Assembly: GCF_030651755.1 (NCBI RefSeq)
Contig: NZ_JAUSBZ010000152.1
Span: 1 to 64,000 of the forward strand
Source: Phenylobacterium sp.
Lineage (GTDB): Bacteria; Pseudomonadota; Alphaproteobacteria; Caulobacterales; Caulobacteraceae
Reading direction: 5' to 3'
DNA: 64,000 bases
A model generated the notes under the pieces. The model did no database searches, was not told the DNA's origin, and saw only the letters and a list, made by a program, of their open reading frames with translations. Of this stretch, positions 27,158-30,313 are shown one piece after another (position 1 is the stretch's first letter; each line of letters begins with the position of its first letter). A program made the position numbers and the translations under genes.

Positions 27158-27817
27158 CTAGTCCACCCAGAGGTCCTGGGCCTCGCCCTTGCGGTTCAGG
27201 GCGCGGACCGCGCGTTTGACCACGGCGATCAGCCGTTCGCGCCGGGCGATCTCGTCATAGGTCAGCGAGCCCCGGGCCAGGCCTTCCAGCAGGAAGCGGC
27301 CGAGATCGCGGCTGGTCTGGAAGCGTGGGTCGCTGCCGGCCTGGGTCAGCGCCAGGAAGCGCTCGCCCACCTGATTGCGGTCAAAGGCGCTCTGGGCGTT
27401 GGCCAGGCGGGTGCGCAGCATGGGGTCGGTGCGGGCGGCGGCCTCCAGCTCGGCGAAGGCCACAAAGGGCGTCTCGTGCAGCAGGGACCAATAGGCGTCG
27501 ATGGCCTGCTCGGCGGAATCGACCCCCGGCGCGGTGGGGCTGGAGGCGGCCTGTTCGAACAGGCGCGCGCGCTCAACCTCGATATGCGCCACGGCGGCCT
27601 CCACCAGCTCTTCACGGCTGGAGAAGTGATAGAGCATGGCCCCGCGGGTCAGGTTGGCCGCGTCGGCGATCAGGGCGTTGGTGGCCGCATGATAGCCGAC
27701 CTCGGCGAACAGCCGCATGGCCGCGTCCAGGATGCGGGCGCGGGTCCGGCGAGACTTGGGGGTCTCCTTGGCGGGATAGGTTCGAGCGTCCATCTGCACG
27801 GGCAAAGCTTCAATCAA
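27158..27817 (-). CDS. TetR family transcriptional regulator
   Basis: TRARILDAAMRLFAEVGYHAATNALIADAANLTRGAMLYHFSSREELVEAAVAHIE. Confidence 0.9.
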   Translation of the reverse strand: MIEALPVQMDARTYPAKETPKSRRTRARILDAAMRLFAEVGYHAATNALIADAANLTRGAMLYHFSSREELVEAAVAHIEVERARLFEQAASSPTAPGVDSAEQAIDAYWSLLHETPFVAFAELEAAARTDPMLRTRLANAQSAFDRNQVGERFLALTQAGSDPRFQTSRDLGRFLLEGLARGSLTYDEIARRERLIAVVKRAVRALNRKGEAQDLWVD

Positions 27818-27933
27818 AGTGCGGCCGACATATGGCGAGCCATGCTGCGGCGCCAGTGTTGCAGTGCGGTTTCATCAAAGCGACATGCAATCAGCCTACC
27901 CGACGGTCAGATATAGCCGCTTCGGAGGCGTTC

Positions 27934-28794
27934 GTGGCCGATCTGGGAATCCGACGTTATCGGACCGTCTTCGTTTCCGACGTCCACCTGGGCACCCGGG
28001 GGTGCCAGGCCGAGATGCTGCTGGACTTCATTCGGCACATCGAATGCGACACCCTGTATCTGGTCGGGGACATTGTCGACGGCTGGAAGATGAAGAGCGG
28101 CTGGTACTGGCCCCAGGCCCATAATGACGTAGTGCAGAAAATCCTGCGCCTGGCCCGCAAGGGCGTCAACGTCGTCTATATTCCCGGCAACCACGACGAC
28201 CGCATCCGCGACTTCTGCGGCATTCACTTCGGCGGGGTGGTGGTGGCCCGCGATGCGATCCACGAGGGCGCCGACGGGCGCCGTTTCCTGGTCACCCACG
28301 GCGATGAGTTCGACGGGGTCGTGCAGCACGCCAAGTGGCTGGCCTTCCTGGGCGACTATTCCTATCGGGCGCTGCTGTCGGCCAACACCCTGTTCAACCG
28401 GGTGCGGCGCCGTATGGGCTTTGGCTATTGGAGCCTGTCGGCCTTTCTGAAGACCAAGGTCAAGAACGCCCTGCACTTCATCGAGAACTTCGAGGGCGCG
28501 GTGGCCGAGGAGGCCCGGCGGCGCGGGGTCGACGGGGTGATCTGCGGCCACATCCACAAGGCGGAGATGCGCCAGATCGAGGACATCCTCTATATCAATG
28601 ACGGGGACTGGGTGGAGAGCTGCACCGCCCTGGTCGAGCATATGGACGGCCGGATGGAGATCCTGGAATGGGCCAAGCTGCGCACCTGGGAGGCCGTGCG
28701 TCAGGCGCGCACCCAGCCCGAGGCGCAGGACTCCAGCCCGCCCGCTCCGGTCGAGCCCCAGCCCCTGCCCGCGGCCGCCACGGCGGCGGCCTGA
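27934..28794 (+). CDS. metallophosphoesterase, UDP-2,3-diacylglucosamine diphosphatase-like; PlcP (phospholipase C)-like
   Basis: RTVFVSDVHLGTRGCQAEMLLDFIRHIECDTLYLVGDIVDGWKMKSGWYWPQAHNDVVQKILRLARKGVNVVYIPGNHDD; VICGHIHKAEMRQIEDILYINDGDWVESCTALVEH; GTG start. Confidence 0.88.
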   Translation: MADLGIRRYRTVFVSDVHLGTRGCQAEMLLDFIRHIECDTLYLVGDIVDGWKMKSGWYWPQAHNDVVQKILRLARKGVNVVYIPGNHDDRIRDFCGIHFGGVVVARDAIHEGADGRRFLVTHGDEFDGVVQHAKWLAFLGDYSYRALLSANTLFNRVRRRMGFGYWSLSAFLKTKVKNALHFIENFEGAVAEEARRRGVDGVICGHIHKAEMRQIEDILYINDGDWVESCTALVEHMDGRMEILEWAKLRTWEAVRQARTQPEAQDSSPPAPVEPQPLPAAATAAA

Positions 28795-28824
28795 TCCGAT
28801 CGGCTGATTGACACCCGGGGAGGC

Positions 28825-28847
28825 TCATGACAGTGAGACTGTCATGA
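28825..28847. promoter_or_regulatory. perfect palindrome TCATGACAGT-GAG-ACTGTCATGA overlapping the start codon of the HTH-glycosyltransferase gene
   Basis: 10-bp perfect inverted arms, 3-bp spacer; contains ATG 28844. Confidence 0.75.
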
Positions 28848-30313
28848 GTGATGACCCCAACGCCCCAAGCGACGGCCCCCTCGACGCCCGGGACCGCCAG
28901 AAGGCCGCCACCCGGGACCAGATCCTGCGGGTCGTCGGCGCCCGGATCGAGACGGGCCCCCTGGACGAGCTGTCCTTCGCCGACATCGCCAAGGACGCCG
29001 GGGTTGGCGAGCGCACCGTCTATCGCCATTTCCCCACGCGTGAAGCCCTGCTGGGCGCCTATTTCGCCTGGGCCCAGGCCCAGGCCACCCTGCCGCTGGC
29101 CTCCCCCGGGGCGGACGCCCCCGTCCGGCCAGAGCCGAGCCCTGCGACGCCGCCGGCCCGCTCCCCGGCCCAGCGCATGTGGGAGCCCGCCGTCCCCGTG
29201 GACGACGTCCAGCGGCCCATGCGCATCCTGCTGGCCACCGACGCCTGGGAGCCGCAGGTCAACGGGGTGGTGCGGACGCTGACCCGGGTGGTGCGCGAAC
29301 TGCGCGACCTGGGCCACGAGGTCGAGGTGATCAGCCCCGACCAGTTCAAGACCCTGCCGCTGCCCACCTATCCGGAGATCAAGGTGGCCATCGGCGCCTA
29401 TGAGCCGGTGCAGGAGCGCTTCAAGGCCTTCGAACCCGAGGCCATCCACATCGCCACCGAGGGCCCCATCGGCCTGGCCGCCCGGCGCATCTGCGTGGAG
29501 TGGAAGCTGCCCTTCACCACCAGCTATCACACCCGGTTCCCGGAATATGTCTCGGCCCGTCTGCCGCTGCCGCTCTCGGTGGGCTACACCTATATGCGCT
29601 GGTTCCACCGCCCGTCCGGGCGGCTGATGGTGGCCACGCCGACCATGCGCGACGAGCTGACCCGGCATGGCTTCCGCAACATCTCGGCCTGGTCCCGCGG
29701 GGTCGACACCGAGATGTTCCGCCCCCGGGCCGAGGGCGAGCCCGACATCTTCGCCCACCTGCCCAAGCCGATCTTCCTCTATGTGGGCCGGGTGGCGGTG
29801 GAGAAGAATATCGAGGCCTTTCTAGGCCTCGACCTGCCCGGCACCAAGGTGGTGGTCGGCGACGGGCCGCAGAAGGACGAGCTGACCGAACGCTACCGCG
29901 GGGTGGTCTTCACCGGCTCGAAGTTCGGCGAGGAGCTGTCGGCCCATTTCGCCTGCGCCGACGTCTTCGTCTTCCCCTCCCTCACCGACACCTTCGGCCT
30001 GGTGATCCTGGAGGCTATGGGCTCGGGCACGCCGGTGGCGGCCTATCCGGCGCCAGGCCCCATCGACATCATCCCGGGCTCCGGCGCCGGGGTGCTGGCG
30101 GCCTCGGCCACCGAAGGGCTGAAGGAGGCCTGCATGGAGGCGCTGGCCCTGGACCGCAAGGCGGTTCGGGCCTTTGCGGAGACCTTCTCCTGGACCGCCT
30201 GCGCCGAGGACTTCGTGCGCAACCTGCAGCCCTATCCCGAGCCGGAAAAGACCCGCTTCTGGCGACGCCTGCGCCGGCTGGCCCGGGTGCGGCGCCGGCC
30301 GAAGACGGCCTGA
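28844..30313 (+). CDS. TetR-type HTH domain fused to GT4 family glycosyltransferase
   Basis: One continuous ORF: N-term AATRDQILRVVGARIETGPLDELSFADIAKDAGVGERTVYRHFPTREALLGAYF, linker VRPEPSPATPPARSPAQ, then MRILLATDAWEPQVNGVVRTLTRVVRELRDLGHEVEVISPD...FLYVGRVAVEKNIEAFL...FVFPSLTDTFGLVILEAMGSGTPVAAYP. Confidence 0.85.
   Translation: MSDDPNAPSDGPLDARDRQKAATRDQILRVVGARIETGPLDELSFADIAKDAGVGERTVYRHFPTREALLGAYFAWAQAQATLPLASPGADAPVRPEPSPATPPARSPAQRMWEPAVPVDDVQRPMRILLATDAWEPQVNGVVRTLTRVVRELRDLGHEVEVISPDQFKTLPLPTYPEIKVAIGAYEPVQERFKAFEPEAIHIATEGPIGLAARRICVEWKLPFTTSYHTRFPEYVSARLPLPLSVGYTYMRWFHRPSGRLMVATPTMRDELTRHGFRNISAWSRGVDTEMFRPRAEGEPDIFAHLPKPIFLYVGRVAVEKNIEAFLGLDLPGTKVVVGDGPQKDELTERYRGVVFTGSKFGEELSAHFACADVFVFPSLTDTFGLVILEAMGSGTPVAAYPAPGPIDIIPGSGAGVLAASATEGLKEACMEALALDRKAVRAFAETFSWTACAEDFVRNLQPYPEPEKTRFWRRLRRLARVRRRPKTA

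Follow-up and report, generated by a model that had tools for sequence, protein, structure and literature searches.

Trigger enzymes of the PutA type, such as E. coli PutA, BirA and NadR, carry an enzyme and a DNA-binding domain within one chain. The gene described here, which fuses a TetR-type helix-turn-helix (HTH) to a GT4 glycosyltransferase, shares this defining arrangement. Like these proteins it has a putative operator of its own and could, as a membrane-associated enzyme, leave DNA when working. It differs from PutA, which pairs a ribbon-helix-helix domain with proline/FAD redox sensing, in that a TetR-type HTH sits on a GT4 enzyme and any sensing is hypothetical. With TetR family repressors it shares a predicted four-helix DNA-binding domain and a palindromic putative operator on its own promoter, but a linker and an enzyme stand in place of the ligand-binding/dimerisation domain of these repressors.

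On the enzymatic side, the closest described proteins are the Agt glycosyltransferases (A. tumefaciens Atu2297 and those of M. trichosporium and Pelagibacter), which occur in plcP-agt pairs. The plcP-agt pair is required for glucuronosyl-diacylglycerol in phosphate-limited Methylosinus (PMC9239053), Agrobacterium Agt makes both glucosyl- and glucuronosyl-diacylglycerol (PMC3972451), and Caulobacter produces anionic glycoglycerolipids on phosphate starvation, in a report whose text does not mention agt or plcP (PMC6445935). The fusion resembles the described Agts in its GT4 type, in a plcP neighbour in most relatives and in a presumed part in glycolipid remodelling. In contrast to them, it adds an HTH, a promoter of its own and a putative operator, while described Agts have no DNA-binding domain. 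In the open-access literature, we came across no glycosyltransferase described as carrying a TetR-type DNA-binding domain.

Architecture and distribution of the fusion

Within the window, that is, the whole 64,000-nucleotide stretch of Phenylobacterium DNA analysed, the fusion is laid out as follows:

28844-30313, + strand: TetR-HTH/GT4 fusion gene, 489 aa (translation, Pfam, orthologues, AlphaFold2)
28889-29089, + strand: predicted TetR-type DNA-binding domain, four helices, aa 16-82 (Pfam, selection, AlphaFold2)
29090-29218, + strand: disordered linker rich in Pro and Ala, aa 83-125; of variable length and evolving fast
29219-30310, + strand: GT4/GT-B glycosyltransferase domain, Agt-like; other genera use its first Met as start codon

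The initial annotation had reported a single uninterrupted ORF at 28844-30313. The frame is indeed open and translates exactly as described, in the order TetR_N HTH, linker and complete GT4 glycosyltransferase, and both domain types were recovered by Pfam and AlphaFold2. The TetR_N match covers aa 39-72 and scores 38 bits with the N-terminal part alone, above the Pfam cut-off of 24 bits, and TetR_N was matched in 34/34 fused members of our alignment A2. Glyco_transf_4 and Glyco_trans_1_4 match aa 139-434 above their curated cut-offs. An AlphaFold2 model built on 48 aligned relatives (mean pLDDT 85) gave confident N-terminal helices at 13-37, 45-52, 56-62 and 66-82, disorder in the linker at 84-109 and a GT-B fold for the enzyme part; the prediction supports the N-terminal part being a TetR-type DNA-binding domain. 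Only glycosyltransferases appeared among the matches listed in a PDB fold search, which was uninformative on the HTH and, together with Pfam and AlphaFold2, indicates a complete GT-B fold with GT4 domains. The C-terminal all-helical TetR ligand-binding/dimerisation domain is absent by Pfam and AlphaFold2, residues 83-125 being mostly disordered linker followed by GT-B.

A separate observation concerns the C-terminal helix (aa 468-483, window 30240-30310), which is very Arg-rich (RFWRRLRRLARVRRRP) and likely a membrane-binding tail. Among the class-wide matches listed, most stop short of this helix.

The initial annotation had also suggested looking in relatives for orthologues with both domains, and these were found: the fusion and its open frame are present in 96 of the 96 orthologues read, which come from Phenylobacterium and a second genus of the Caulobacteraceae. 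Matches were obtained in 95 of 100 Phenylobacterium genomes, the full-length ones beginning at query residues 2-16, and the second genus (g15) carries the fusion in three genomes. Caulobacter, Brevundimonas and the other sampled genera encode the bare enzyme, starting at the Met equivalent to window 29219. Class-wide sampling of 385 genomes yielded no further fusion among the matches listed, which, the window's own excepted, consist of the enzyme alone or of a partial linker plus the enzyme; one longer match (G589) was rejected, as its alignment runs through stop codons. The genomes sampled were mostly metagenome assemblies. The fusion is fixed in Phenylobacterium and is more than a chance event. 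The tree of the enzyme part requires a single gain only, and with its modest support (71/83 for the fused/bare branch, 68% of bootstrap trees) we infer that the fusion was probably gained once.

A comparison of dN/dS had likewise been proposed, and it places the HTH under purifying selection. For about 350 pairs chosen with enzyme parts 90-98.5% identical, the median dN/dS was 0.087 for the HTH and 0.085 for the enzyme, versus 0.29 for the linker, as computed with NG86, a simple method for GC-rich genes. HTH and enzyme are thus equally constrained, which shows that the protein makes use of its HTH. Additionally, helix 3 and its flank, the ERTVYR[HY][FY]PT recognition region, are nearly invariant among orthologues.

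Gene neighbourhood, promoter and palindrome

Four features precede or overlap the fusion start:

27869-27886, + strand: weak PHO-box-like direct repeat GTTTCAT-CAAA-GCGACAT, upstream of plcP
27910-28794, + strand: metallophosphoesterase resembling plcP, LpxH-like with scores far short of the LpxH cut-offs; partner in the ancestral operon
28808-28813, + strand: TTGACA, conserved -35 box in the promoter of the fusion itself (comparison of orthologues)
28825-28847, no strand: palindromic putative operator TCATGACAG-TGAGA-CTGTCATGA, 9-bp arms and 5-bp spacer, over the start codon

A plcP gene precedes 68 of 96 fused genes and 15 of 23 bare ones, the location known for agt genes. It was not found upstream in the other 28 fused loci, where promoter, palindrome and fusion are nevertheless all retained, and it lies elsewhere in the genome in 9 of 10 such genomes tested. 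In most bare-enzyme genes the start reads ...TGATG and shares 1-4 bases with plcP. Relying on synteny and family membership, without a direct comparison to a characterised Agt sequence, we infer that the enzyme part is Agt-type and would make glucosyl- and/or glucuronosyl-diacylglycerol. Many orthologues have the PHO-box-like repeat upstream of plcP in the same place, but in the window it is weak. A full-length TetR gene (window 27158-27817, - strand), divergent from plcP, is a conserved neighbour, present in 85/96 fused and 16/23 bare flanks.

The palindrome and the fusion's own promoter are new here; neither the operator nor the plcP context had appeared in the initial annotation. The right arm of the palindrome contains the fusion start codon, and the palindrome was found with its in-frame ATG at the set place in 93 of 96 orthologues, the core TGACAG/CTGTCA having at most 3 mismatches in these 93. 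The remaining orthologues (L024, L110 and L119) fall outside this automatic count, although inspection by eye still reveals a diverged or second site in them. The palindrome has been duplicated in two lineages: L024 has a further, perfect copy upstream, and the group of L029, L034, L070 and L121 carries a diverged tandem copy. Between close pairs, sites differ by 8% in the arms, 41% in the spacer and 45-58% in the flanks, with the arms evolving about 5 times slower than the spacer. The T at -19, the mirror base of the A after the start codon, is retained in 85 of the 93, a conservation that would not be explained by coding or by ribosome binding.

As for the promoter, 89 of 93 orthologues have TTGAC at 36-39 bases upstream of the ATG, compared with 0.8% of control windows, and no -10 box could be identified with confidence. 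Since the palindrome lies downstream of the -35 box and spans the start codon, it covers the rest of the promoter together with the start codon. At the level of sequence alone, and with no binding shown, the fusion thus has the palindromic operator at a target promoter that is typical of the TetR family. The bare-enzyme genera have neither the palindrome nor the promoter at the enzyme start. A conserved matching operator, together with close relatives that lack HTH and operator, amounts to a natural before-and-after experiment. A PHO box was considered as a site at the fusion promoter and rejected, none being found there within 3 mismatches.

Proposed autorepression and competing explanations

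Self-repression of the gene, which the initial annotation had proposed, gains strong support from the sequence comparisons. Because the fusion is fixed, its HTH is under purifying selection and the conserved palindrome lies on its own promoter only where the HTH is present, we read the fusion as a putative Agt-like glycolipid synthase that represses its own promoter. We regard this reading as very likely, in the absence of binding, expression or enzyme data.

The TetR-type HTH, presumably as two protomers, would bind TCATGACAG-N5-CTGTCATGA, and the free protein on the palindrome would block transcription of the fusion gene; binding and repression are both inferred, and activation is not excluded. 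With the usual TetR dimer-making domain missing, dimerisation would run via the enzyme part or the HTH. The most speculative step, modelled on PutA, is that engagement with substrate, diacylglycerol or membrane releases the protein from DNA, whereby the enzyme level would be matched to demand. That the protein senses through its catalytic or membrane-bound state is plausible by analogy, with no test data. A one-protein thermostat of membrane composition, in which the engaged protein would leave the operator so that more is made, the idle protein would keep the gene off and, in one clade, a cell-wall L,D-transpeptidase gene with the same palindrome may also be controlled, is offered only tentatively, as rather less than an even prospect. 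The locus makes directly testable both a lipid enzyme regulating its own gene and a repressor domain working without its usual dimerisation domain.

We infer that the arrangement arose through a capture, probably a single one, that placed the promoter, operator and HTH of a self-regulated tetR between plcP and agt and replaced coupling to plcP by independent self-control. In a free-standing full-length TetR with a 47% identical HTH, the gene's own start codon comes with a TTGACA box and an inverted TGTCA/TGACA repeat, features to be expected in a donor of this type. This likeness hints at a joint acquisition of promoter, operator and HTH from a self-regulated tetR, the donor itself being inferred. 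The case illustrates a way out of co-regulation for an operon enzyme, which is to take up promoter, operator and DNA-binding domain together.

A narrower form of the autorepression reading is that the fusion autoregulates by its own concentration alone, the catalytic domain sensing nothing. The flexible, fast-evolving linker offers no obvious signal path, and simple negative autoregulation is common, so this form remains a serious possibility, only somewhat short of even. What speaks against it is that one enzyme has replaced the TetR ligand-binding domain and the pairing is kept throughout the sampled genus; in addition, membrane-bound enzymes can partition away from DNA, PutA being an example.

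We consider it improbable that the palindrome is used by another regulator, either the TetR encoded at 27158-27817 or PhoB, with the fused HTH having a different role. The TetR gene has long stood next to fused and bare loci, but its presence extends to bare-enzyme genera without the palindrome. Similarly, the half-site CTGTCAT is like a PHO half-site, yet PHO boxes are direct repeats and the palindrome is inverted.

An RNA hairpin hiding the start codon and controlling translation, with the HTH having another DNA target or none, receives very little credence from us. Arms of 6-9 bp enclosing a 5-base loop at the start codon would suit such a structure, as would the overlap of the palindrome with the ribosome-binding site. 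At the most variable pair, however, A.C mismatches (22) outnumber G.U pairs (6), the reverse of what is expected of an RNA stem, and the outer pair has a C.A mismatch in 15; a DNA operator tolerates A.C and G.U alike. Moreover, the palindrome strictly co-occurs with the DNA-binding domain. The mismatches point to a DNA operator and not to an RNA hairpin, a conclusion drawn without binding data.

The alternative raised in the initial annotation, a decayed tetR read through by chance with the real start at the internal ATG 29219 and a functionless HTH, is rejected: this Met is the start codon of other genera and remains ATG in 93 of 96 fused genes, but of the rest two carry CTC and one CTG, the frame is open in all 96, HTH and enzyme have matching dN/dS values, and it is the upstream start to which the conserved promoter and operator are tied.

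Further palindromic sites

When the window's genome was searched at up to 1 mismatch, the palindrome at the fusion was the sole site, and a regulon in this genome was rejected, no further site being found at that threshold. A perfect TGACAG-N5-CTGTCA is present in six other Phenylobacterium genomes (L132, at 2272-2288, L125, L127, L128, L129 and L134), where this second site is flanked by genes for a lysine-2,3-aminomutase-like protein and a YkuD L,D-transpeptidase, upstream of the latter; a seventh genome (L141) has it with one mismatch. The site is missing from most relatives tested, and the L,D-transpeptidase gene is a possible second target in one clade. Finally, TTGACACGATAACTGTCA is conserved upstream of an unannotated gene (L272, L275 and L276, at 1501), with the site present in 5 of 6 sister genomes, and is probably the site of another regulator.
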